Shown piece by piece: positions 48,001 to 61,518 of a stretch of DNA of 64,000 nt. The stretch is taken from positions 530,890-594,889 of the forward strand of contig NZ_LMUT01000025.1 in the NCBI RefSeq assembly GCF_009765785.1, in the 5' to 3' direction. Made by a program: the position numbers and the translations under genes. The notes below the pieces were generated by a model. The model worked only from the letters and a program-made list of their open reading frames with translations. It made no database searches and had not been told where the DNA came from. The first letter of the stretch is position 1, and each line of letters starts with the position of its first letter. Source of the stretch: Granulicella sp. L46. GTDB taxonomy: Bacteria; Acidobacteriota; Terriglobia; Terriglobales; Acidobacteriaceae.

Positions 48001-48111
48001 ATGAACGCCGTAAGAAAAATGAGCTTGAAAACGCTGGCGTCGCCTCTTTCGCGTCAATTTGCAAACACATCGAGAGGAAGAATCACTAACAATGCCGTGA
48101 CAATTACCTGA
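48001..48111 (+). CDS. Candidate 36-residue small peptide at head of the cluster
   Basis: A short frame with a good ribosome-binding site (AAGGA four to five bases before the ATG) encodes a basic, Ser/Thr/Asn-rich peptide ending TNNAVTIT. It lies 145 bases before the nucleotidyltransferase gene. It has no Cys or Trp and no acidic residue for lasso-type ring closure. It could be a precursor peptide, a leader, or chance: a 36-codon frame is not rare by itself. Confidence 0.3.
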   Translation: MNAVRKMSLKTLASPLSRQFANTSRGRITNNAVTIT

Positions 48112-48256
48112 CATCCAGATAACAAGTTGTATCTCGCAATCCACTAAGCTCACCTATATTGGCTCGCGTTGACGGACGTATCTTCGGCTCCGCCGGAAGA
48201 GAAAGGCAAAGCTCAGCAGTGCATCCTATGCTCAAGTCGGAGATAGCGGCACCTCA

Positions 48257-49555
48257 TTGTCCGCCACTCCTCTCTCTGTCTCTCGTTCCGCCGTCGGCGG
48301 CGTAAATGCGGCGGTATTCCCAGTGAACCGTACTCAGGAGCTCCGCCACACCGTGCTGTTGAGCATCGGCGCATGTGTCCTCCCCCCAGTCGATCTGATG
48401 CATCTCTCTCGCAGGCAATGGAAGACGCTGCTTGCGTGGCTGGACATCAGCGGCATGGCACTATATTTTTCTGAGCACCTTACGCTGCTCGGGGTACACG
48501 ACGCGTTGCCTGCAGTCATTCGGCAACGTCTACAACAAAACATGGAAGACAACGCAAAGCGCACACGCGGCATGGTGGCAGAGTCCGTTGTCCTTCAGCT
48601 AGAGTTCCAGAAAGCGGGACTCTCCTACGCCGTCATGAAGGGTCTTTCGCTTTCGCCGGTCGCCGTGCCTCGCCCAGAGCTGAGACATCAGTTCGATCTT
48701 GATTACCTGGTCTCCGAGTCCAGCGCGCCCGAGGCCCGCCGCATTCTCGAGCGCAGAGGATACACCCTCTATAGCATTAGCGGAAATAGCTGGGAATTCA
48801 AGATAAATGAAACGCCACACGTCTCGATGAAAGACCTCTACAAGGACCTTCCATATCGAACTGTAGATCTGCACCTTGAGTCAGAAGTCTCGGAGATAGG
48901 CTCTCGCCTGGAGCGGTCCGTTCAACGGTCGATGTTCGGCATCAGCATGCCGGTGTTCTCGCCGACGGATCTCTTTCTTCATCAGACAATGCACGTTTTC
49001 AAGAATGTATGCAATGGCCACACGCGCACAGCACATATCCTTGAATTCTATCGGCACGTGCGCACTCGTTACGCGGATGATACATTTTGGTATGAACTTC
49101 GCGCTCGGACGAAAGGCAACTCGAGTGCGCGTCTCGGCATAGGTGTTATGACCTATCTCGTCTCCTCAGTGCTCGACGACTTCGCGCCGCAGACCCTCAC
49201 AGAGTGGACATCAGACCGGCTGCCTCCTTCCGTGCGTCTGTGGGTGGATCTATATGGACAAGAAGTCGTCTTCGGCAATCATCCTGGTAATAAGCTCTAT
49301 CTATTGCTGCAAAAAGAGCTCGAGACCGCAGGCATACCTCAGAAGCGATCGACTAAGACATCCTTGCTTCCTTCCGCCCTTCCGCCAATTGTCATTCGTG
49401 CAACTCACAACGAGACCTTCCTGACTACGCTTGCTCGCTATCGCGTGCAAGTGCGCTATTTGTGCTCGCGTCTTCTTTTTCATGTCGTAGAAGATCTTCG
49501 TTATGCACTTGAGTTGCGGCGTTGGCGAAAATATTTGGAGCGACTCTCATCTTGA
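48257..49555 (+). CDS. Uncharacterised nucleotidyltransferase family protein (PF14907-like)
   Basis: The 432-residue protein has the PF14907/NTP_transf_5 core: AVMKGLSLSPVAVPRPELRHQFDLDYLV, with K128-G129 before the D147-x-D149 nucleotidyltransferase pair, then ARRILERRGYTLYS and TVDLHLESEV. Members often sit in lasso-peptide or exopolysaccharide clusters next to HPr-kinase-like proteins, as here. Substrate unknown. The start is a TTG at 48257 with only a distant GGAG; no better in-frame start was found. It overlaps the next gene by four bases. Confidence 0.82.
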   Translation: MSATPLSVSRSAVGGVNAAVFPVNRTQELRHTVLLSIGACVLPPVDLMHLSRRQWKTLLAWLDISGMALYFSEHLTLLGVHDALPAVIRQRLQQNMEDNAKRTRGMVAESVVLQLEFQKAGLSYAVMKGLSLSPVAVPRPELRHQFDLDYLVSESSAPEARRILERRGYTLYSISGNSWEFKINETPHVSMKDLYKDLPYRTVDLHLESEVSEIGSRLERSVQRSMFGISMPVFSPTDLFLHQTMHVFKNVCNGHTRTAHILEFYRHVRTRYADDTFWYELRARTKGNSSARLGIGVMTYLVSSVLDDFAPQTLTEWTSDRLPPSVRLWVDLYGQEVVFGNHPGNKLYLLLQKELETAGIPQKRSTKTSLLPSALPPIVIRATHNETFLTTLARYRVQVRYLCSRLLFHVVEDLRYALELRRWRKYLERLSS

Positions 49556-50361
49556 CTTCTTCTCTGCGCCCTGCAGCCTCTGCCTTTGACGCCGTCGCGC
49601 CCTCGTATGACTCCCGCTTTGGGGTCTGGGCCAGCGTAGCCGCACAGCGCCGCGCTGTACGCACAGCTTTGATTCAACAGTTTCCTGCAGGCGGGCGCAT
49701 TCTGGAAGTAGGCGGTGGCACCGGAGAAGACGCCTTGTTTCTCGCCCAGCATGGGTTCGAGATATTGCTCACGGATCCGTCCCCAACGATGGTGAAACTC
49801 TCCGCTGAGAAACTCGCTCCGTTCAATGTCGCAACTGAGATCGCCACGGGAGAGGAGATGGAGGACTTTGCGCAACGCTATCTCATTGCAGGCCGACCCC
49901 TGTTCGACGGCGCCTTCTCAAACTTCGCACCGCTCAACTGTGTCGGAGATCTAAGCCTCGTTGCACGCGGTCTATCGCAACTTCTCAAGCCCCAGGCAAC
50001 GGCGATGCTGGTTTTCTTTGGGACCTGCTGTCCTGGAGAGATGGTCGTGGAAACTCTTCATAGGCGACCGCGACAAGCACTTCGACGCCGGAAACTGGGT
50101 AACGTCGAGGCAAGGCTGGCCAAACGTGAGTTTCAAATTGTCTACCATCGCCGAGCTGCAATCGAGCGCGCATTCGCGCCGTGGTTCATTCTCGAAAGAA
50201 CTGTCGGCATCGGTATCACTGTGCCTCCCAGCGCAGCCGAGCCCTGGATATCTCGGCACCCGCGCCTGCTCTCGGCCATGGAAGCTATTGATCGTGTACT
50301 CGCGCATCCATTGGCAATGCTAGGAGACCACATTCTCTATCAGTTCCGCCGGACAGCATGA
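49552..50361 (+). CDS. Class I SAM-dependent methyltransferase
   Basis: The protein (about 269 residues from the TTG at 49552 overlapping the previous stop) has FDAVAPSYDSRFG, then SAM motif I ILEVGGGTGEDALFLAQHGFEILLTDPS and a motif II-like RPLFDGAFSNFAPLNCVGDL. The C-terminal part is basic and hydrophobic, without a known specificity domain. GGAG lies about 12 bases upstream. It is the second gene of the cluster; the acceptor is unknown. Confidence 0.85.
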   Translation: MTSSLRPAASAFDAVAPSYDSRFGVWASVAAQRRAVRTALIQQFPAGGRILEVGGGTGEDALFLAQHGFEILLTDPSPTMVKLSAEKLAPFNVATEIATGEEMEDFAQRYLIAGRPLFDGAFSNFAPLNCVGDLSLVARGLSQLLKPQATAMLVFFGTCCPGEMVVETLHRRPRQALRRRKLGNVEARLAKREFQIVYHRRAAIERAFAPWFILERTVGIGITVPPSAAEPWISRHPRLLSAMEAIDRVLAHPLAMLGDHILYQFRRTA

Positions 50362-50477
50362 TGAGCGACATGCGGCGAACCAATAACCCGACGACTAGAG
50401 AATATTTTCCCGACACGATGGCAGCTGTAGGTATGTACATTCGCGAAACGGATGTCGAATGTCGTCGCTGCTGTTGA
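50358..50477 (+). CDS. Candidate 39-residue Cys-ending peptide coupled to methyltransferase
   Basis: The ATG overlaps the methyltransferase stop as ATGA, and the frame runs 39 codons into an otherwise empty 263-bp gap before the radical SAM gene. The peptide is leader-like (charged, Met-rich) and ends in DVECRRCC, with all three cysteines in the last five residues. Position and composition suit a RiPP precursor, but there is no Shine-Dalgarno, no homologue is known to me, and a chance frame of this size is possible. Confidence 0.35.
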   Translation: MMSDMRRTNNPTTREYFPDTMAAVGMYIRETDVECRRCC

Positions 50478-50624
50478 TTGAATCTCCTCTTTACTAGCGC
50501 GTTCTTAGGGACTACTGGCGAGTCATGCAAAGATGACATTGCGCTGACATTCGCAAGACAAATCAACCTCTCGCGCGCAGATATGCTGGACACCTGAAGC
50601 GGCGATCCACGCCGCATCAGGTCT

Positions 50625-52154
50625 ATGGCCCGAGTCTCCGCGCTACGGGCCAGACAGCCGAGTTTGAGGTGGCCCTTGTCCGACGTTCTGCTGACGCACT
50701 CCTATCATCTGCCTTTCGATGCGAAGCAGTTGCGCAAAATGCAGCCTTATACGCCTATCGGCACGCTCTACGCGGCCACTGCGTTGCGGGGGCACGACAT
50801 CACCGTTGCAGTTTTCGATGCGATGCTGGAACCGCCGGGCGAGAAGCTTTTTGCGCTGCTTGAGGTGCAGCGGCCAAAGATTGTGGCGGTCTATGAAGAC
50901 GACTTCAACTTCCTCTCGAAGATGTGCCTCACACGCATGAGAGAAGTTGCAAAGGAGATATCGAAAGCCGCTCACGAGATCGGCGCTATCACCATCATCC
51001 ACGGTTCTGACTCGACGGACAATCCCGAGTTGTTCCTCGCGAGTGGCTTCGATTATGTGCTCTGCGGTGAAGCCGAAAGCGTTCTCGTGGAGTTATGCTC
51101 GTCCATCCTCGAGCATAGAGAGGTCCCGGAACTCGACGGGCTTGTGCGTATCGACGAATTGGGAAAGGTCGCCCGTGGTCAGCAACGGCTCGCGAAAAAC
51201 CCCTCATGGGCACAACTCGCTCTACCTTCTCGCGATCTCATCGACCTGGAGCCCTACCGGGCCGCTTGGATGCAGGCACACGGGTACTTCTCGACAAATA
51301 TGGTGGCGAGCCGCGGCTGTCCATTTCATTGCAACTGGTGTGCGAAGCCCATCTCAGGCAATCGCTTTCACCTACGCGTCGCTTCCGTTGTAGCGGAAGA
51401 GATGTTGGTGTTGAAAAACGCTGGCGTGCAACACGTGTGGTTTGGTGATGATGTTTTCGCGTTGAACCGTCACTGGGTCAAGGAATTCGCCGAGGAAGTG
51501 GAGAAAAGAGACGCGGCCATACCTTTCAAGGTCCAGTCTCGCGCCGACCTGATGTATGAGGATACAGTGCTCCATCTTAAAGCAGCGGGATGCGCCGAAG
51601 TATGGATGGGCGTGGAGTCTGGAGCTCAAAGCATCCTCGACGCTATGGACAAGGGCATCACGCTCAGCAACGTTATTGCCGCACGTGCGCTGTTACAGAA
51701 CGCCGGCATCCGCGCTTGCTTCTTCCTGCAGTTCGGCTATCCCGGTGAGACCTGGATTGAGCTCCAGCAAACTATAGAGCTAGTTCGCGAGCTCCGCCCT
51801 GACGACATCGGCATCTCATTCTCTTATCCGCTGCCGGGCACTGTCTTTTACGAACGTGTGCAGGCGCAGCTCGGCGATAAACGTAACTGGAACGACAGTG
51901 ACGACCTCTGCATTATGTTCAAGGCCGCGTACACCACAGACTTCTACCGTGCGGTACGCGAAGCTCTGCACGCGGAGGTAGACGCATGGCACCATCCATA
52001 CGCAACAGACAATGTTGCTCTGCTTTGGCAGAGAGTGCATGAGCTGGAGCCCGTAAGCCGGGTCTCGGACGCCTTGGAGGTCCCTGCACTCAACAACCTC
52101 ACGTCCTCTACCTTCGTTCCCGTTGAGCAACTCACCGCGCTTAGGAGCTCATAG
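50625..52154 (+). CDS. B12-binding-type radical SAM protein
   Basis: The 509-residue enzyme has an N-terminal cobalamin-binding-like Rossmann region (about 20-165: TPIGTLYAATALRGHDITVAVFDAML; IIHGSDSTDNPELFLASGFDYVLCGEAE). The radical SAM domain has the 4Fe-4S motif C-x3-C-x2-C (C232, C236, C239 in RGCPFHCNWC), followed by HVWFGDDVFALN, EVWMGVESGAQSIL and FFLQFGYPGET. The N-terminal domain lacks an obvious DxHxxG, so cobalamin may bind base-off. It probably methylates or rearranges an unactivated carbon of the cluster product. It is 147 bases after the candidate peptide. Confidence 0.88.
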   Translation: MARVSALRARQPSLRWPLSDVLLTHSYHLPFDAKQLRKMQPYTPIGTLYAATALRGHDITVAVFDAMLEPPGEKLFALLEVQRPKIVAVYEDDFNFLSKMCLTRMREVAKEISKAAHEIGAITIIHGSDSTDNPELFLASGFDYVLCGEAESVLVELCSSILEHREVPELDGLVRIDELGKVARGQQRLAKNPSWAQLALPSRDLIDLEPYRAAWMQAHGYFSTNMVASRGCPFHCNWCAKPISGNRFHLRVASVVAEEMLVLKNAGVQHVWFGDDVFALNRHWVKEFAEEVEKRDAAIPFKVQSRADLMYEDTVLHLKAAGCAEVWMGVESGAQSILDAMDKGITLSNVIAARALLQNAGIRACFFLQFGYPGETWIELQQTIELVRELRPDDIGISFSYPLPGTVFYERVQAQLGDKRNWNDSDDLCIMFKAAYTTDFYRAVREALHAEVDAWHHPYATDNVALLWQRVHELEPVSRVSDALEVPALNNLTSSTFVPVEQLTALRSS

Positions 52155-53120
52155 ATGCTTACTCAGGAGCATCCTCTTCGGGAAGCGCGAGATGAGGTCT
52201 CCGCTAGCACGCGGCTTCTCTTGCGATGCCCGCGTTGCCACACAGATATAGTGGAACTCGTCTGTCCACAGTGCACCTTCCACATGGAGGTCCATCACGG
52301 TATTGTGCATGCTTTGTCACCGGAGCGTGCCATACGCTATCGCCAGTTCATGGCAGACTATGAGCACATTCGCACAGCAGAAGGTCGCGGCAGCCGCAAT
52401 GAGGACTTCTATCTAGCCTTGCCCTATAAAGACACGACGGGAAAGAATAGCCACCAGTGGAGGATTCGAGCGAAGAGCTACGACTACCTGACAAAGCACG
52501 TGCTCGGTTCTTTACCTGACGGTGCTTTCATATTGGACCTTGGCGCGGGCAATTGCTGGATGTGCTTCCGCCTGGCCCGTCTCGGCTACAAGCCAGTAGC
52601 TGGCGATCTCCTCACCAACGAGGACGATGGTCTGGGCGCCGCATCTCATCTTCTGAAGCACCTCCCCACACCATTTCCGCGCTTCCAGGCAGAGGCCACG
52701 CATCTCCCGTTCGGTGACGGCCAGTTTGACGCGATCGTCTTCAACGCGTCCTTCCACTACTCCGAAGACTATGAAGAGACGCTCCGCGAGGCGTTGCGCT
52801 GCCTCAAGCCTGCAGGCCTTCTGATCATTAGCGATACCCCCTGGTACTCACGCGATGAGAGTGGGAGGCAGATGGTTGCGGAGCGACAGGCTGCATTCCG
52901 CCGACGGTTTGGCACCGCATCGGACTCTCTCAAGAGCCTTGAATATCTAACAGACGAGAGGCTGCAGACTCTCGAAGGCAGTCTGTCCATTCGCTGGGTG
53001 AAATACGTTCCCTGGTACGGTTCGCGATGGGCCCTCCGTCCATGGATAGCGAAGCTACGTCATCGCCGGGAACCATCTCAATTTCGAATCTATGTCGCGA
53101 GGAAGCATGCTCGCTCATGA
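52155..53120 (+). CDS. SAM methyltransferase with N-terminal zinc ribbon
   Basis: The 321-residue protein begins with a four-cysteine zinc ribbon (C25, C28, C37, C40: CPRCHTDIVELVCPQC) followed by a class I methyltransferase domain. SAM motif I is FILDLGAGNCWMCFRLARLGYKPVAGDL, then FDAIVFNASFHYSEDYEETLREALRCLKPAGLLIISDTP. This resembles UbiE-type enzymes with a Trm112-like ribbon, frequent in antibiotic and glycan clusters. AGGAG lies seven bases before the ATG; the radical SAM stop immediately precedes it. It overlaps the amidohydrolase by ATGA. Confidence 0.9.
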   Translation: MLTQEHPLREARDEVSASTRLLLRCPRCHTDIVELVCPQCTFHMEVHHGIVHALSPERAIRYRQFMADYEHIRTAEGRGSRNEDFYLALPYKDTTGKNSHQWRIRAKSYDYLTKHVLGSLPDGAFILDLGAGNCWMCFRLARLGYKPVAGDLLTNEDDGLGAASHLLKHLPTPFPRFQAEATHLPFGDGQFDAIVFNASFHYSEDYEETLREALRCLKPAGLLIISDTPWYSRDESGRQMVAERQAAFRRRFGTASDSLKSLEYLTDERLQTLEGSLSIRWVKYVPWYGSRWALRPWIAKLRHRREPSQFRIYVARKHARS

Positions 53121-54397
53121 GATCTCCGCAACGCCTTCCCAGTGCAATCGTCATTCACGGGGCCGTCTGCGCGTCAGATCCTGAAGAAGCACGCCGCGAC
53201 TCATTACGGGTTGTCCCTTCCCGCCCATCCATTCCTCTCGCCGCGCCCGCACCTCCAATCCACATTGACCTGAGTGGATATCTAGTGATGCCGGGGCTCA
53301 TCAATGCGCACGACCATCTACAGTTCGCGCTGCATCCTCGGCTCGGCAATCCTCCATACCGCAACTACATTAACTGGGGCGAAGATATACACGCCACACT
53401 GTCGCAGTTGATCGCGACCTACAAGACAGTGCCGAAGGATGTCCGCCTCTGGTGGGGCCTCATTCGTAACCTTCTCTGCGGCGTGACGACGGTTTGTCAT
53501 CACGACGAAATCTGGCCTCTTCTGCGGCTGAACGACCTTCCCATCACAGTCGTTCAACGATTTGGCTGGGCGCACTCGCCAGCGCTAGGCGGCGATCTCC
53601 GCCAAGCCCATGCTATGACCTCGCATGACAGCGCGTTCATCGTGCATGCCTGTGAAGGCGTCGACGATCTTGCGCGAAACGAACTCCGCGAGCTTCATCA
53701 TCTCGGAGTACTGGATGCCCGCACCGTCATCGTGCACGGCCTGGCCATGAATGAAACGGATGTCCGCCTGGTGAATGAACATAGAGCGTCTCTCATTCTC
53801 TGTCCTTCCTCGAATGAATTTCTTTTCGAAAGGGTGCCGCACTTCGGCACCCTTGGCGCGGTCGAGAAGGTAGCTCTTGGAAACGACTCTCCCATAACTG
53901 CCACCGGCGACTTGCTTGATGAGGTCCGCTTTGCTATCGAGCACTGCGACATCGCGCCCGCTCGGGTCTACCGCATGGTAACGGAGTCGGCCGCGACGGT
54001 ACTCCGTTTGAAAGGAGGGGAAGGCACTCTTTGCACGTCAGGCGCGACTGACTTGATCGCTATTCGAGACACTGGCGAAATCCCAGCGGAGAGACTTCGA
54101 ACGCTCTCCATGCACGACATCGAGCTTGTCATCGCGCACGGCAGCGTCCAGCTTGCTTCAGCGTCAATGCGGCAGCGGCTGCCCAGCGAACTCACGCAGA
54201 ATATGGAGCCCCTCTGGATCGACGGGGATATTCGCTGGTTACGCGCCCCTGTCCAAATGCTTCTACAGCAGGCGGAAGCGGTTCTGGGCTGCGGTAACGT
54301 GCAACTCGGGCGCCGCACGGTTCGAAGCCCACATCGTTCCAGCGTCGCCGCAATAACTTCGCAGGAGCTGCCTGCATATAGCGGCGGGAGGGCCTGA
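53117..54397 (+). CDS. Amidohydrolase-family metal-dependent hydrolase
   Basis: The product from the ATG at 53117 has 426 residues. It has the amidohydrolase HxH motif (H65-D-H67 in PGLINAHDHLQF), further metal-ligand-like histidines in FIVHACEGVDD and VIVHGLAMNE, and the catalytic-type aspartate in ALGNDSPIT. This is the ATZ/TRZ-like deaminase/chlorohydrolase group. It would cleave a C-N or C-X bond on a cyclic intermediate. The start overlaps the methyltransferase stop (ATGA) and its end overlaps the glycosyltransferase start (TGATG). Confidence 0.85.
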   Translation: MRSPQRLPSAIVIHGAVCASDPEEARRDSLRVVPSRPSIPLAAPAPPIHIDLSGYLVMPGLINAHDHLQFALHPRLGNPPYRNYINWGEDIHATLSQLIATYKTVPKDVRLWWGLIRNLLCGVTTVCHHDEIWPLLRLNDLPITVVQRFGWAHSPALGGDLRQAHAMTSHDSAFIVHACEGVDDLARNELRELHHLGVLDARTVIVHGLAMNETDVRLVNEHRASLILCPSSNEFLFERVPHFGTLGAVEKVALGNDSPITATGDLLDEVRFAIEHCDIAPARVYRMVTESAATVLRLKGGEGTLCTSGATDLIAIRDTGEIPAERLRTLSMHDIELVIAHGSVQLASASMRQRLPSELTQNMEPLWIDGDIRWLRAPVQMLLQQAEAVLGCGNVQLGRRTVRSPHRSSVAAITSQELPAYSGGRA

Positions 54398-55740
54398 TGG
54401 CGCATTTCGGCTTGCTTTCTTACAAAGGCACCGGCCACCTCAATCCCCTCATCTCGCTCTCGCGGCAATTGATCGCGCGAGGCCACAAGGTGACGCTCTT
54501 CCAAAGCCCCGAGCTGGAGCTGAGAGCACGCGAGCAAGGGCTGGACTTTTTCCCCATCGAAACCTCCCACTCGGCCGACATAAAGCAGCACCGAACGCGG
54601 AAGCCCACAAGCTCCGCATCTCTCGTCGAGATACGCTATCGTCTCCATCGCATCTCCTCCGAGATGGAGACTTTTCTGCATGCGTACCCTCCTGCGTTGC
54701 GCGCTACAGGCGTCGACACACTCATCATGGGAGAGATTTCACTCACCGGACCCACCGTCGCCGAATTGCTTCGCCTCCCGTACTTTATCGTGTCGACCTC
54801 CATCCCGCACAACTTCGGATGGCACGCGCCTCGCTCGATCTTGTCCACAACCTCTTGGACCGAAGGCCTGCAGAAAAAGCTTCTCGAGGTATCCGTACTT
54901 CACATGAACGGCCCTGTCCTGTGGAGTCTCGATCGCCTCCGGAAGCGCGTTGGTCTTGCCTCCGCGCGCAATATCGCAAAGACCCACCCAGAACTCGCAC
55001 ACATCACGCAGTGGCCGCAGTGCCTTGACGACCAGCGCTTTACGCTACCGACCAACTTCTTCTACACCGGCCCGTTCGTCAACGACATGGCACGGCCTTC
55101 CATCGACTTCCCATGGGAGAAGCTGGATGGCCGTCCTTTGGTATATGCATCTCTCGGAACCACGCGGAAAAACGATGCGTCTATCTTCCATCGCATCGCG
55201 CAGGCATGCAGCGGTTTGGGCATGCAATTGGTCATCACACTTGGCGGACGTCGCGACCCTTCCATCCTTGGCGGTCTTCCCGGCGATCCTGTCGTCGTCG
55301 GGAACGCTCCTCAGCTCGAGCTCTTGAAGTCGGCCGCAATCGTTATCACGCACGCCGGTCCCAACACTGTTCTGGAAACGCTCTTACATGGCAAGCCCAT
55401 GGTCGCGCTTCCTATGACACTCGATCAGCCCGCTGTCGCTGCCCGTCTTGCAAAAGCAGGCGCAGCAGTAGTCCTCTCCGAACAGTACCGCTCCGTGAAA
55501 GACATTCGCGACGCGTTGCTAAAGGTGCGTGACGATCCGCGTTACCACGAAGCCTCTATCAAACTTCAAACACAAATGCTTCCTTTGCGCGGCCTGGAGC
55601 GCGCCGCGGAGATCATCGAACAATCGCTGGCGTCCCACCATCGCAGCGTTCCCCCTGCGCAGGATTTACCTTTCACTGATACGCAAACGGCAATCCATAA
55701 CGTCCTGGAAAGAGAAACCGCAAACCTAAGTCTCGCGTAA
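54397..55740 (+). CDS. GT1-family (MGT-type) glycosyltransferase
   Basis: The 447-residue protein has the GT-B fold of the UDP-glycosyltransferase superfamily. The N-terminal domain is FGLLSYKGTGHLNPLISLSRQLIARGHKVTLFQ, and the donor-binding end is GNAPQLELLKSAAIVITHAGPNTVLETLLHGKPMVALPMTLDQPAVAARLAKAGAAVVL, with His-Ala-Gly and the D-Q pair. Members glycosylate natural products (CrtX, macrolide GTs). It is coupled to the amidohydrolase and its 3' end overlaps the convergent kinase-like gene by 15 bases. Confidence 0.92.
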   Translation: MAHFGLLSYKGTGHLNPLISLSRQLIARGHKVTLFQSPELELRAREQGLDFFPIETSHSADIKQHRTRKPTSSASLVEIRYRLHRISSEMETFLHAYPPALRATGVDTLIMGEISLTGPTVAELLRLPYFIVSTSIPHNFGWHAPRSILSTTSWTEGLQKKLLEVSVLHMNGPVLWSLDRLRKRVGLASARNIAKTHPELAHITQWPQCLDDQRFTLPTNFFYTGPFVNDMARPSIDFPWEKLDGRPLVYASLGTTRKNDASIFHRIAQACSGLGMQLVITLGGRRDPSILGGLPGDPVVVGNAPQLELLKSAAIVITHAGPNTVLETLLHGKPMVALPMTLDQPAVAARLAKAGAAVVLSEQYRSVKDIRDALLKVRDDPRYHEASIKLQTQMLPLRGLERAAEIIEQSLASHHRSVPPAQDLPFTDTQTAIHNVLERETANLSLA

Positions 55741-56754
55741 ACTACCCTGCGTCAGCATCTCGAGTTGCATGATTGCGTCATTCAACTCGCAGTAGTGCAG
55801 CTCATAGGTCGGCACGCCGGCAAGCTTCTCTAGCACTCTCTCATGCTTCGAGCGAATATCTCCAGCGGAGAAGAGATCTCGACTCATCTGCTCCGTCGCA
55901 CTTCGCCGCGGCAAGGCCACCAGCGAAGCATGCGCCTCCGGATATCGTTTTAGGTAAACCACAGCATGAACCGTAGCCTCCGGAGCCGTCTCCATCGCAG
56001 GGAGTTCGGCAACAGGCACCTCGATCGAGGCCTTGCCTTCCATGCGCGGCGTAATCTCGCGTTCCTCCAGCTCGGGAAATAGCTTCTTCGCCGCTGGCCG
56101 AAATCGCACGCGATGCGAGTGGCCGATTACGCGCGGCACCATCGAATGGTTGATCAGATAGCTCGTGTCGTCCGACGTGTATGTCCACCCTGCGCGTGCA
56201 CACGCATAAGCAAGAGTCGACTTGCCGGCCCCCGAATCCCCACACAGCAGGACACCAATTCTCTGCTTGCTTACACACGCTGCATGGATGTCCGTCACCA
56301 TTGACGAACCCAGCAGGAGGTAGACAGTTTTCTCTAAGAAGTTATGTCGAAGATAAAGACTATTCTTCAGCGCGTCACGGTTCAGCCAGATGAAGCTCGT
56401 GCCGGTCTTCAGGTCCAGTATCGCCTGGTTTTCCGTATTCGCTACCATCGAGTACAAGTGCTTGTACTCACGGCGCACCGGCTCGGGTGCTACCTGCGAG
56501 CCGCCTTCATCCGTCACGCCTATGCGTATCTGAATGCCCGTGCCTCCTCGGCTCAGGCGACGGTGACCAAAACTCGCCTGCGCGGCGTCCAACACCTCGG
56601 ATCTGTTCGTAAGTATCTCGACCGCAAATCCCAATGGATAGAACGTTTGCCGCAGCGGCAACTCCATATCAAACAACAGAGTATCCTGCAACCGACGCGA
56701 CTCTGTGCTCGGACGTTGCCGTTTGTCTGGTCGACGGATAAGCGCGTTCGGCAT
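55726..56754 (-). CDS. HPr kinase/phosphorylase-like protein
   Basis: The 342-residue protein has a Walker A P-loop GDSGAGKST at about 172-180 and the HprK-like YTSDDTSYL a few residues later. The N-terminal region (FYPLGFAVEILTNRSEVLDAAQASFGHRRL) is that of HprK-related proteins found beside PF14907 nucleotidyltransferases. It is longer than the short kinases of lasso clusters, and there is no HPr or PTS gene nearby. In lasso clusters such enzymes phosphorylate the precursor or product; that role here is inference. It is antisense to the cluster direction, so it has its own promoter. Confidence 0.82.
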   Translation of the reverse strand: MPNALIRRPDKRQRPSTESRRLQDTLLFDMELPLRQTFYPLGFAVEILTNRSEVLDAAQASFGHRRLSRGGTGIQIRIGVTDEGGSQVAPEPVRREYKHLYSMVANTENQAILDLKTGTSFIWLNRDALKNSLYLRHNFLEKTVYLLLGSSMVTDIHAACVSKQRIGVLLCGDSGAGKSTLAYACARAGWTYTSDDTSYLINHSMVPRVIGHSHRVRFRPAAKKLFPELEEREITPRMEGKASIEVPVAELPAMETAPEATVHAVVYLKRYPEAHASLVALPRRSATEQMSRDLFSAGDIRSKHERVLEKLAGVPTYELHYCELNDAIMQLEMLTQGSLRET

Positions 56755-56936
56755 AGCTTACGGTAGACGGATTCGTGCAAACCGCACGCGACCGCTCTTC
56801 TCCCTGTAATGAGCCTGCGCCAGCACACAACCGCTGAGTGACACGGCCAACTACCTCGAAGTCTAGCAATCATCTCGTACTCATTTGTCATTTTAGGGTC
56901 ATACAACTGTCAATCCTTCTTCGTCTGCTAGTGCCA

Positions 56937-56994
56937 TGGATCCTCTACCGAACGCGCAAGTGTGACAATCAATTGACAAAAAATAGAGGATCCA
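56937..56994. promoter_or_regulatory. 11-bp inverted repeat with TTGACA upstream of PhyH gene
   Basis: TGGATCCTCTA (56937-56947) and TAGAGGATCCA (56984-56994) form a perfect pair with a 36-base spacer. A TTGACA (56973-56978) sits inside the spacer and the right arm lies where the -10 spacer would be. It may be an operator for the downstream gene or a structured leader. Confidence 0.45.
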
Positions 56995-57067
56995 AAGACA
57001 CCTTTGAATCTGCACCGCACTATCGTGGCTAAGGTGCGGGCATGACCCAGCCGTTGCCGAGGCATAC

Positions 57068-58006
57068 ATGAAAACTTTCCACGAGCTGCACGCTGCGAAC
57101 ATCAACCCCGAGGCGTTGCGCAGCGAAATTGACACTAAAGGCTATGCGCTGATTCGCAATCTCATCCCGCAGGATTCCATCCGCTCCGTACTGGCTGATG
57201 TAACGCGCATCCTCTCTACAGAAAACTGGCTGTCGCCAACTGCGGATCCCCTGCAGCGCATACCGCAGCACAGCGTAGCCTACGGCGATCCCGACCCGGT
57301 CTTCAAGCGTGTTTATCAGGATGTATTCAACCTCGAGTCCTTCCATGCGTTGCCGCACCAACCCGCGCTGCAGCGTGCAATGAAGATGATCGTCGGCGAC
57401 CAACTGCTTATCCACCCCAAGCCCATCGGCCGCCTCATCTTCCCGAACTGTGAGCACCTTGTGGTGCACGCACATCAGGACTACGAGTTCATGGGTGGCG
57501 ACTCCGAGTTCTTCACTGTGTGGATTCCTCTACACAATTGCCCCACCGACATGGGCGCACTACGCATCCTTGAAGGCTCGCACCGATACGGTATACAGCA
57601 CCACCAGCGCGAAAATCTCCACGTCCCCGAGATTCCACTCGACAGGGTCGCGGGCAACGATTGGGTAGGAGGCGATCTCAACGCCGGAGACGTGCTCATA
57701 TTCCACAGCCTCACCGTTCACGCAGCCTCACCCAACATTTCACAGCAGATGCGCCTCTCGCTCGACTGCCGCTTCCAGGATGCACGTCGCGTACTCAACC
57801 CCTCCAACCTCGTCTTCGCAGGCGAGTCCGGCAAGTCTTGGGAGAAGACCTACTCCGGCTGGAAGTCGGACACGTTGAAGTTTTACTGGAAGAACATCCC
57901 GCTCACCTTCAATCCTTCGAAGGCCGAGATCGAGCACCTGGCACGAACCGCCGAGCCCCCTTCGAAGCGCGCACGCTACGCTCGCATGGTGAGTCAGCTC
58001 GCATGA
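57068..58006 (+). CDS. Phytanoyl-CoA dioxygenase (PhyH)-family Fe(II)/2-oxoglutarate enzyme
   Basis: The 312-residue protein has the facial-triad H-x-D at H136/D138 (HAHQDYEFMGGDSEFFTVWIPL), the distal histidine at about H218 (FHSLTVHAASPN) and the 2-oxoglutarate-binding arginine in MRLSLDCRFQ. It hydroxylates or oxidises an unactivated carbon. Its GAGG site precedes the ATG. It belongs with the cluster by location but is separated from it by the antisense kinase-like gene. Confidence 0.9.
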   Translation: MKTFHELHAANINPEALRSEIDTKGYALIRNLIPQDSIRSVLADVTRILSTENWLSPTADPLQRIPQHSVAYGDPDPVFKRVYQDVFNLESFHALPHQPALQRAMKMIVGDQLLIHPKPIGRLIFPNCEHLVVHAHQDYEFMGGDSEFFTVWIPLHNCPTDMGALRILEGSHRYGIQHHQRENLHVPEIPLDRVAGNDWVGGDLNAGDVLIFHSLTVHAASPNISQQMRLSLDCRFQDARRVLNPSNLVFAGESGKSWEKTYSGWKSDTLKFYWKNIPLTFNPSKAEIEHLARTAEPPSKRARYARMVSQLA

Positions 58007-58350: not shown

Positions 58351-61300
58351 TTATTGCCCAAATCTGACAACGATACCGGCGCCAAGGAGAAGGTCGTTCT
58401 GGATATTGTTGGTTCCGTTGGGCAGCTGTGTGTGTTGCCAGGCGGCTTCGATTGCACGCACAGCGACATGCTGCGAGAGCCTGTAGTCGAGCCCGCCGCC
58501 GGCTTGGGCGCCACCTCCCATCGAGCGCTTGTGTTGCAAGGACCCTTGATTAGCTGCCGTCTGTATGGTCATGGTGAAGCTTGTCGGATTCGTCCCCGGC
58601 GTCAAGGTCTGTGGGGTGAATGTCGCGGTGGCCGCCGGCGACAATCCTGCTGCACTGAGAGTGATGGGGAAGTTGAAGGGGCCGAGCAGCGGTGTCAGTG
58701 CAAATTTGAAGATCACTGCCTTGCCGGGAATCACAGTCCGACTGGTTGAACCGGCTGGGTTGTTCGGCTGCGGCGTTAGGGTGATGCTGAAGTCTTCGAC
58801 CAGCTGAGGGATGGCGGGGGAGGTGCTGCCGGTAAAGCTTGAATTCCCTGAATAGACTGCGGTGATGTTGTCCGTACCGGTAGCGATGGAGACGTTCGCG
58901 GCGATGGCGGTGACGCCGCCCGGGGGAAGAGTCTGAGTGCTGAAGGGGGTACCGGCGGCAGCGAAGGCAATGGTGCCGGTGGGGGTGCCGAGGCCCAGGG
59001 GAACAACTACAGCGGTGTAGGTGATTGGTTGACCGGCGAGGGCGGGGTTGACGTTAGAGGTGAGGGTGATGGTGGTGGGGGAGACAGTTGCTGTGCCTGT
59101 GAGCAGGATGCTCTGGGGGACTATGCCGGCACCGGTGAAGACGACCGAGCCGGTGGAAGTTCCGGCGGTTACGGGGAGAAGCTCGAGGTCCTGGGTGCAG
59201 CTGGCGCCGGCGGCGAGGGTAATCGGCGGGGCGGAGCAGGTGCCACCGGTTGCCGTCGTAAAGCCCGCGCTCGTAGTGATCGTGGAGACGGTGATCGCGC
59301 CTGTGCCGGTGTTGGACAGGGTTACGGCCTGCGGTGGACTCGGTATACCAACGTCTACGGCTGGGAACGTAAGGGTTGGGAGTGTGCCGGAGCGCAGGCG
59401 CTGGTTGAGGCGGTCGGCGATGAAGAGGTTGCCGAAAGCGTCGGGTGCGACGGCGTGCGGGGAGTTGAGGATGGCTGCGGTGGAGAGGCCTGCGTCGCCG
59501 CCGTAGCCTTGCGAGCCCGAACCCTCGATGGTCGCGATGGTGTTGTTGCCGACCTGGCGAATGCGCTGGTTGTCGGTGTCGGCGATGTACGCATTGCCGG
59601 CGGCGTCTACGCTGACGCCGGAGGGCTTGGAGAGGGTTGCGGCGGTTGCCGCGGCGCCGTCGCCAGAGAAGCCTGCGCTGCTGGTTCCTGCGAGGGTGAT
59701 GATGGTGCCGCCGCTCACCATGCGGATGCGTTGGTTGAGGCGGTCGGCGATGTAGACGTTGCCCTCGCGTCTACGGCGACGCCTGTGGGTGAGTCGAGGG
59801 CAGCAGATGTGGTGGGTCCGTTGTCGCCCGCGTAGAGCTCCTCGCCGTCGCCGGCGAGTGTGGTGATGGTGCCGCTGCTGACCTTTCGGATGCGGTGGTT
59901 GTTGGTGTCGGCGATGTAGACGTTGCCGGTGCTGTCGACGGCTACGCCGCTGGGCAGGGAGAGTTGTGCGGCGGTGGCGGCTGCGGCGTCGCCAGAGAAG
60001 CCGGGCGTTCCTGTTCCCGCGACGGTGGTGATGGTCCCGCCGCTGACCTTGCGGATGCGATGGTGTGGTGGTGGCGTTGCTGATGGAGAGCGTGCCGGTT
60101 GTGCCTGAGGTGGTCACGGTGCCGACGCTAACGGAGGTGACGGAGCCGGTACCGTTCGCGCCCGCGCCCTGGGGCCTGCCGGACCAGCGGCACCGGCTGG
60201 GCCTGCGGGGCCGATGGGTCCCTGTGAGCCTTCTGGTCCGAAGGCGCCGGCACGGGCAATCAGGTTCCAGACGCCGGGGTTGGTGGGGGGATCGATATTA
60301 AAGTTTGTGACGAGCGCGATGTAGCTGGAGCCGCTGGTGGAGCAGGCCGCGCAGAAGACGACTTGTCCAATGGTGTAGGCGGTGGAGGAGGCCCAGTTGG
60401 TGACGGTGCCGAGGGTGCCGACGGGGCCTTGCGGGCCGGGGGCGCCGGCTGGTCCTGCGGGGCCGGCTGGACCGGTAGCGCCAGCGGGTCCGGTGAGACC
60501 CGTTGGGCCAATGGGACCTGCTGGACCGGTACCCCCTGCGGATCCAGTCGCGCCGTGTTCTGCGATGAGATTCCAAAAGCCGGTCTGCGTGGGGGGATCC
60601 TGATTGGTGTTGGTAGCGAGCGCAACGAAGCTGGAGCCGTTGCTCGAGCAGGCCGCGCAGAAGACAACCTGTCCGATCTGGTAGGTGGTGGTGGAGGACC
60701 AGTTAGTCACCACGCCGATGGTGCCGGCGGGACCTGCGGGGCCATCAACGCCGATTGGGCCTGCAGGACCCATGGGGCCGGGGACGCCGGTGGGACCAGC
60801 GGGTCCGGCTGCGCCATTTGCTCCAGCGGGACCGATGGCTCCGGGGGCGCCGGAAGGACCGACGGGGCCGGGGATTCCGTTGGCACCGTTCGCGCCTGCG
60901 GGACCGGCGGGGCCCTGGGGTCCGGGAATAGCCTGCGGCCCGGTTGCGCCCTCGGAGGTGATGGTGATGTCGAGGGTGGCGGCGTGGCCGGTCTCGTCAT
61001 TTTCTTTGCTCGAGGAGAAGGTTGGCGGAGTCGGAGGTAAGGGCGACGCCGAAGTTGGTGGCGGGCGTGGTGACCCAGTTTTGGACGAGCGTAGTGACGT
61101 CGAGTGTGACGTACTGGCCGGGAGCGGAAGCCATGAAGATGCCGGCAGTCGTGCCGAGGGTGGGGGCGGAGGTTGAGGTGACGGAGGACTCGCTCCAGGC
61201 AGAGGTGGCTGGAGCGAGGGTGACGGAGCCGGCTGTGTTGACGCGGTTGACGAAGACAGTGAGGGTCGCGCGCGCGATCTGTGCGGAGGTGGTTCCGGCC

Positions 61301-61518
61301 GGCAGCGTGCTGAGATCGAATTGCAGGAACGCCGAGTTGCCGTTTCCGACGTAGAGGTTCGAGAGAGTGCCGAAGTTCGTCGACGGTCGCGCAGTGCTGA
61401 CGCTCGCATCGCCGGTCAAGGTTATCTGTGCGGCGTTGGCGGCTGTGCTAAATGGAAGAGTGGCGAGGACGAGGGATAGCAGCCGAACACGCGATAGTTC
61501 AAGAAATCGCTCCTGCAA
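58351..61518 (-). pseudogene. Frameshifted DNRLRE/collagen-like/NHL/Ig-like secreted protein fused to an OmpA-porin-type tail
   Basis: Read from 61518, the frame gives a signal peptide (STAANAAQ) and a DNRLRE-type domain (LYVGNGNSAFLQFDLSTLPAGTTSAQIARATL), then shifts at about 61009. A second frame carries two collagen-like Gly-x-y blocks with repeated GQVVFCAACS segments, then shifts at about 60172 (a CCCC tract). A short GTVTTSGTTGTLSIS stretch is cut at about 60066. NHL-like repeats (VYIADTNNHRIRKVSSGTI) run in a third frame to about 59765 and then return. Ig-like Big_3/5 domains follow, and the end (SQHVAVRAIEAAWQHTQLPN...LGAGIVVRFGQ) is the barrel end of a different porin-like protein. 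Four frame breaks and a chimeric tail mark decay, unless the read is faulty. Confidence 0.7.

Follow-up and report, generated by a model that had tools for sequence, protein, structure and literature searches.

A stretch of 64,000 nucleotides from Granulicella sp. L46 (contig NZ_LMUT01000025.1, positions 530,890 to 594,889; in the following, the window) carries a compact cluster of eight genes with a B12-binding radical SAM enzyme (rSAM) at its core. Comparison with related genomes revealed that the window holds a relocated, reduced copy of a conserved module linked to exopolysaccharide (EPS) loci, with which it shares a specific cis-element. On this basis we consider it fairly probable that the cluster, rather than making a peptide, serves to tailor an acidobacterial EPS or EPS-linked glycoconjugate and is run by a dedicated two-component system. 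Gene content and order were checked in the window and all eight genes were subjected to a Pfam scan. The features are the following (position, strand, assignment).

48087-48124, minus: four TGTCA-like half-sites with an 11-bp period, upstream of NT
48257-49555, plus: NT, PF14907 nucleotidyltransferase-like, first gene of the operon (Pfam 1.7e-32, conserved residues, fold)
49552-50361, plus: MT1, class I SAM methyltransferase (Pfam; orthologue in 12 of 12 type A loci, see below)
50362-50624: gap of 263 bp separating MT1 from rSAM
50534-50560, minus: three TGTCA-like half-sites repeated every 11 bp, ending 64 bp ahead of the rSAM start, kept in relatives
50625-52154, plus: rSAM, B12-binding radical SAM enzyme of 509 aa, core of the module (Pfam, alignment, tree, AlphaFold/Foldseek)
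52155-53120, plus: MT2, class I SAM methyltransferase with zinc ribbon (Pfam, conserved residues)
53117-54397, plus: AMH, enzyme of the amidohydrolase superfamily (Pfam, conserved residues)
54397-55740, plus: GT1 glycosyltransferase, UDPGT/MGT-like (Pfam, nearest relatives)
55726-56754, minus: HprK-like kinase, convergent, with the P-loop region of HPr kinase (Pfam, HKDD residues)
56886-56912, plus: three half-sites resembling TGTCA, in the HprK-PhyH intergenic region
56963-56978, minus: exact TGTCA-N6-TGTCA, 90 bp upstream of PhyH
57068-58006, plus: PhyH-type Fe(II)/2-oxoglutarate dioxygenase (Pfam, conserved residues)

Gene content, order, strands and tight packing as described in an earlier note on this DNA were borne out. 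The junctions overlap or abut with the 263-bp gap as the sole exception, and the TTG start codon of MT1 overlaps the stop codon of NT. HprK and PhyH are divergent, and control sites lie in the 313-bp intergenic region between them. AMH starts at 53117 or, alternatively, at an ATG at 53027. Position 48001, taken as the left edge of the cluster in the earlier note, is non-coding, with the first gene starting at about 48257 or later.

Orthologues of rSAM were sought throughout the phylum and in 85,000 species genomes, resulting in about 100 loci. The gene order of the window was found again in 11 other acidobacterial loci, where the rSAM protein is 65-74% identical; chance is thereby excluded as an explanation of the gene grouping. 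The reading as a tight, so far uncharacterised modification cluster whose genes are kept together is supported by this finding. In these loci, designated type A, the order is NT-MT1-GCH2-rSAM-MT2-AMH-GT1-(GT87)-HprK/PhyH, where GCH2 denotes GTP cyclohydrolase II; the bracketed GT87 gene was not found within the window cluster. In the larger type B clusters, B12 radical SAM genes stand in tandem, two to five of them, together with MT1, MT2, a SPASM radical SAM gene and a methyltransferase-aminohydrolase, present as a fusion or a pair. In the rSAM tree type A forms one clade (SH-aLRT 97) nested within the acidobacterial type B branch, so that type A looks like a reduced derivative. Its sister is a pair of type B loci, one of them from Edaphobacter lichenicola, in which GT87 and GCH2 adjoin the cluster. 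At 43-50% identity the rSAM family extends to Ignavibacteriota, Bacteroidota, Chloroflexota, Gemmatimonadota, Planctomycetota and Rhodanobacteraceae, and in the literature we found no description of it. In Dyella and Rhodanobacter (loci L125, L138 and L142) the rSAM orthologue occurs together with an ABC exporter, an HprK-like kinase and a PF14907 gene. These gammaproteobacterial loci also hold AMH, a methyltransferase and a second B12 radical SAM gene close by.

The link to EPS biosynthesis emerged from the flanking genes, which were judged as far as each contig reaches, with family identities by Pfam. A Wzx/Wzy-type EPS locus encloses or adjoins the type A cluster in genomes G049, G359 and G130 and in loci L066, L067, L068 and L085; the same flanking porin-like gene stands beside the cluster in L065, which brings the number of relatives with this context to eight. 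Type B clusters of G337, G370 and G249 likewise adjoin such loci, and regulator and kinase genes are found next to the type B clusters of L078, L081, L082, L084, L086 and L087. Among the flanking families are SLBB/Poly_export, Wzz, a Wzx-type flippase, Bac_transf, WecG and a Wzy_C ligase, accompanied by cupredoxin, cytochrome c and an OmpR-type regulator with its sensor kinase. The placement of cupredoxin and cytochrome c genes by the O-antigen ligase gene (L178:6949-7772 and the corresponding position in relatives) has no obvious reason. In the genome of the window itself (G000), the EPS locus is situated on contig C9 and the rSAM cluster on C19. The complete signature of a Wzx/Wzy-dependent locus, i.e. 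export, chain length, flippase, ligase and initiating transferase, is present in the C9 locus, with homologues in relatives; none of these genes occurs in the window segment. The C9 locus additionally carries its own HprK and PF14907 paralogues.

Compared to described Wzx/Wzy loci, those of the relatives contain an extra set of B12 radical SAM enzyme, aminohydrolase, methyltransferases, HprK and PF14907, and the copy in the window is detached. The earlier note had named membership in a known exopolysaccharide pathway as an outcome that would overturn it. This came true in part, since the cluster lies in or near a Wzx/Wzy locus in most sufficiently flanked relatives and has control elements in common with it, but the pathway is not a known one: our literature search found nothing relevant on an EPS pathway with a B12 radical SAM enzyme or on a system combining HprK, PF14907 and EPS, and this enzyme set was not found described for any EPS pathway.

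The shared control element came to light through brief stretches of non-coding sequence conserved ahead of NT. It consists of TGTCA-N6-TGTCA with an 11-bp period and is shared by cluster and EPS locus upstream of operon leaders. With at most one mismatch, 10 matches occur in the window compared to 3.2 expected, a number reached in 0 of 100 shuffles; eight of the ten fall into the three intergenic regions of the cluster, in arrays of two to four half-sites. A set of 101 related loci, together 1.72 Mb of which 89% is coding, yielded 58 exact sites, compared to a mean of 2.9 (maximum 14) for 59 permuted half-sites. Nearly all of the 58 (55) fall between genes, mostly at operon leaders, and 47 precede a gene of the cluster or of an EPS locus. 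When spacings from 0 to 22 were scanned, peaks appeared only at N6 (58) and N17 (47), all others giving 0-5, and an additional half-site at a distance of 11 bp on either side accompanied 26 of 74 sites against a background of 1.6%. Within type A clusters the leaders NT, rSAM, HprK and PhyH mostly score 9-10 of 10 for the element and internal genes mostly 6-8.

Genome-wide, G000 (5.5 Mb) contains 17 exact sites, the reversed control giving 3. Three are located in the cluster and three in the C9 EPS locus (6 of 17, p 4e-9). The third PF14907 gene of this genome (C5:474934, L057:8935) is preceded by an exact site 263 bp upstream, so that all three PF14907 genes of G000 share this feature. In G049, 8 of 10 sites fall within 21.5 kb (p 1e-17). 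A triple half-site array was also observed at C5:1461335-1461361 (L176:5036-5062) upstream of a gene for a 201-aa secreted protein, which is a possible further member of the regulon.

A candidate for the cognate regulator is encoded at the end of the C9 EPS locus, where an OmpR-type protein (Response_reg and Trans_reg_C) is found together with a sensor kinase. Of the three C9 sites, one precedes the regulator gene by 66 bp. Genomes with this regulator (n = 9, at least 59% identity) contain 6-17 sites and genomes without it (n = 4) 0-3 (Mann-Whitney p 0.003), and the regulator is present in 8 of 8 tested genomes with rSAM compared to 3 of 10 without (p 0.004), both p values being indicative because related genomes are not independent. 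The C9 regulator would thus act in trans on the TGTCA arrays as its predicted binding sites. Similar to direct-repeat regulons of the PhoB/OmpR family, half-sites spaced by 11 bp are combined with a regulator of Response_reg and Trans_reg_C architecture. In contrast to the Pho regulon, the sites are concentrated at EPS and cluster operons and at the regulator's own promoter.

In rSAM the CxxxCxxC motif is formed by C232, C236 and C239, which are invariant in the alignment, and Radical_SAM and B12-binding domains are both present in 14 of 14 family members. This combination of a radical SAM core with a B12-type N-terminal domain is shared with AprD4 (apramycin diol dehydratase), TsrM, OxsB, MgmA, TokK and CysS. 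The AlphaFold model (pLDDT 80) was matched by Foldseek to TsrM, AprD4 with paromamine, MgmA and OxsB, and AprD4 (6fd2, 2e-29) was the best solved relative in a profile search. Identity to AprD4 and other cobalamin radical SAM enzymes is about 20%, and rSAM reaches 98.6 bits against the AprD4 family NF033070 (cut-off 500). Direct naming of the cluster proteins from NCBIfam failed, as every cut-off was missed by a wide margin. NT displays the ANT(2'')/MNT nucleotidyltransferase superfamily fold with invariant catalytic KG, R and DxD (KG..R...DxD). In the HprK-like kinase the full His-Lys-Asp-Asp (HKDD) motif is present (H...GKST...SDD in the window), H128 and K149 being conserved in 100% and D167 in 94% of 31 homologues; its score against HPr kinase proper (TIGR00679) is 23.2 bits, below the cut-off of 240. 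The AMH residues HxH, HxxE, H and D are retained in 30 of 30 homologues, a set that we take to be of the mononuclear deaminase type. The nearest solved relatives of AMH include 4f0r, named a methylthioadenosine (MTA)/S-adenosylhomocysteine (SAH) deaminase, and 4gbd, presumably an MTA/SAH deaminase as well.

From these observations we infer that the module tailors EPS, and likewise its substrate and every reaction. Ancestrally, the module would have been situated inside a Wzx/Wzy-type EPS locus; in G000 it would have come to lie on C19, apart from the C9 EPS locus, and yet still be wired to it via the TGTCA arrays. The B12 radical SAM enzyme may perform C-methylation or rearrangement of a sugar carbon, sugar-like chemistry being suggested by AprD4 bound to paromamine among the closest solved structures. 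O-methylation could be contributed by MT1 and MT2, hydroxylation by PhyH and addition of a sugar by GT1, and the HprK-like kinase and NT might phosphorylate and nucleotidylate an intermediate. AMH may act on the product. Alternatively, its kinship to MTA/SAH deaminases and its mononuclear deaminase residues make it plausible that it clears 5'-deoxyadenosine and SAH arising from the rSAM and methyltransferase partners. 5'-Deoxyadenosine is described as a toxic byproduct of radical SAM enzymes (PMC6079011). Methoxyl groups have been reported on Granulicella EPS (PMC5259719), which fits methyltransferases in an EPS locus, the genes of that strain not being linked to the methoxyl groups.

The 263-bp gap proved to be informative as well. 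MT1 and rSAM flank a gene for GTP cyclohydrolase II in 11 of the 12 type A loci, and by this comparison the window's cluster, the exception, has evidently lost it. An in-frame TAG interrupts the cyclohydrolase of the G130 cluster (L033:9169), which suggests ongoing loss in the genus of the window. Each of the 8 genomes checked, whether or not it bears the cluster, also has a cyclohydrolase gene standing alone, with 58-62% identity to the cluster copy of L031, and a RibBA-like gene, which marks the cluster gene as an extra paralogue. The standalone gene on C5 was for the same reason rejected as a displaced cluster copy. The gap aligns to most relatives at 50529-50562, i.e. at the promoter element upstream of rSAM, and to little elsewhere. 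The gap length given in the earlier note was exact, but the short peptide frame placed in it is not conserved: the small-ORF comparison over the 12 type A clusters found no conserved peptide, the leftover matches being mostly shadows of flanking genes and the short ones turning out to be the control element. The frame was consequently rejected as a precursor, and the gap is read as a scar of the cyclohydrolase loss together with a promoter.

Several observations weigh against a tailoring function in EPS biosynthesis. The cluster is not adjacent to an EPS locus in the window's genome, in L063 and in L064, and the core of non-acidobacterial relatives lies amid varied glycosyltransferase genes, a full EPS locus not always being present. 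The fold of rSAM is no closer to AprD4 than to the tryptophan methylase TsrM. Enzymes of the GT1 family and GTP cyclohydrolase II usually belong to small-molecule pathways, the latter having no obvious role in glycan formation. In G225, G036 and G195 the regulator is present and rSAM absent, which indicates that the module is accessory. The TGTCA half-site, finally, also resembles the PhoB box.

As an alternative, the cluster could make a small molecule that diffuses and bears sugar and methyl groups, perhaps built on a GTP-derived pyrimidine; its genes would then share the EPS regulator merely because both serve biofilm life. The cyclohydrolase that all type A loci but one (11 of 12) possess in addition to housekeeping copies, the deaminase residues of AMH, the proximity of GT1 to macrolide and small-molecule glycosyltransferases and that of PhyH to 1-deoxypentalenic acid hydroxylase are all in line with it. 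We nevertheless regard it as rather unlikely, since the cyclohydrolase is lost or interrupted in the window and G130 while the other genes stay open, the type A core has no dedicated exporter, and the larger type B ancestors mostly do without cyclohydrolase and GT1 yet keep rSAM, methyltransferases and AMH. If the arrays were PhoB boxes, the cluster would be a phosphate-starvation response, for instance for a phosphorus-free surface glycan or glycolipid. The Pho box is CTGTCAT-N4-CTGTCAT; half-site and 11-bp period match it, and the regulator, too, belongs to the OmpR/PhoB family. However, no recognisable pst or pho gene was found at any of the 17 exact sites in the genome, as judged from protein N-termini only, and the number of sites follows the orthologue of the EPS-locus regulator across genomes, leaving this explanation improbable. 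A lasso-like or other ribosomal peptide, in which HprK phosphorylates and the PF14907 protein nucleotidylates or glycosylates the modified product, is favoured by pairs of HprK-like kinase and nucleotidyltransferase-fold partner documented in lasso clusters (PadeK/ThcoK, PsmK/PsmN), whose kinases are reported to have the HKDD motif also present here (PMC9266682). This proposal is largely refuted and can be given hardly any weight. Neither a precursor nor a conserved small ORF was detected, and, as the earlier note had correctly stated, the Pfam scan of the eight genes shows no asparagine-synthetase-like cyclase, PqqD-like B1 or B2. In contrast to lasso systems, the partners are polysaccharide and B12-rSAM genes, and the HprK and NT pair also occurs in an EPS locus without the rSAM module. 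Two genes of the relatives were tried as lasso B1 and B2; the one of 704 aa turned out to encode a GT87/PD40 protein, that of about 216 aa GTP cyclohydrolase II.

With tailoring of EPS as the preferred function, an orphan enzyme set is tied to a specific EPS locus, with a candidate regulator and a predicted binding site. Acidobacteria are abundant in soil and their EPS is thought to be important for survival there, while little is known about the genes behind its unusual chemistry and control. The set belongs, as a single branch, to a B12 radical SAM family that spans several phyla, and further members can be found by the TGTCA array or the rSAM core. It is conceivable, and we propose it only tentatively, that the core of B12-rSAM, methyltransferase, aminohydrolase, HprK and PF14907 defines a widespread undescribed pathway class for a radically modified surface glycan or a glycan-linked nucleotide compound in Acidobacteriota, Bacteroidota, Ignavibacteriota, Chloroflexota, Gemmatimonadota and Rhodanobacteraceae, which in Acidobacteriaceae would be placed under a dedicated two-component regulon.

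Matches to the B2-type family PF13471 were obtained in G000 only at C5:1311457 (L192) and C21:375067 (L193), outside the cluster. Both lie near a PqqD-like protein of 84-91 aa and a protein of about 400-440 aa, making these loci the better candidates for lasso-like or other ribosomally synthesized, modified peptides in this genome. Downstream of the cluster, at 58351-61518 on the minus strand of the window, an ORF with collagen-like GPAGPxG repeats (60114-61409) was found beside an ORF with NHL/Ig-like repeats.

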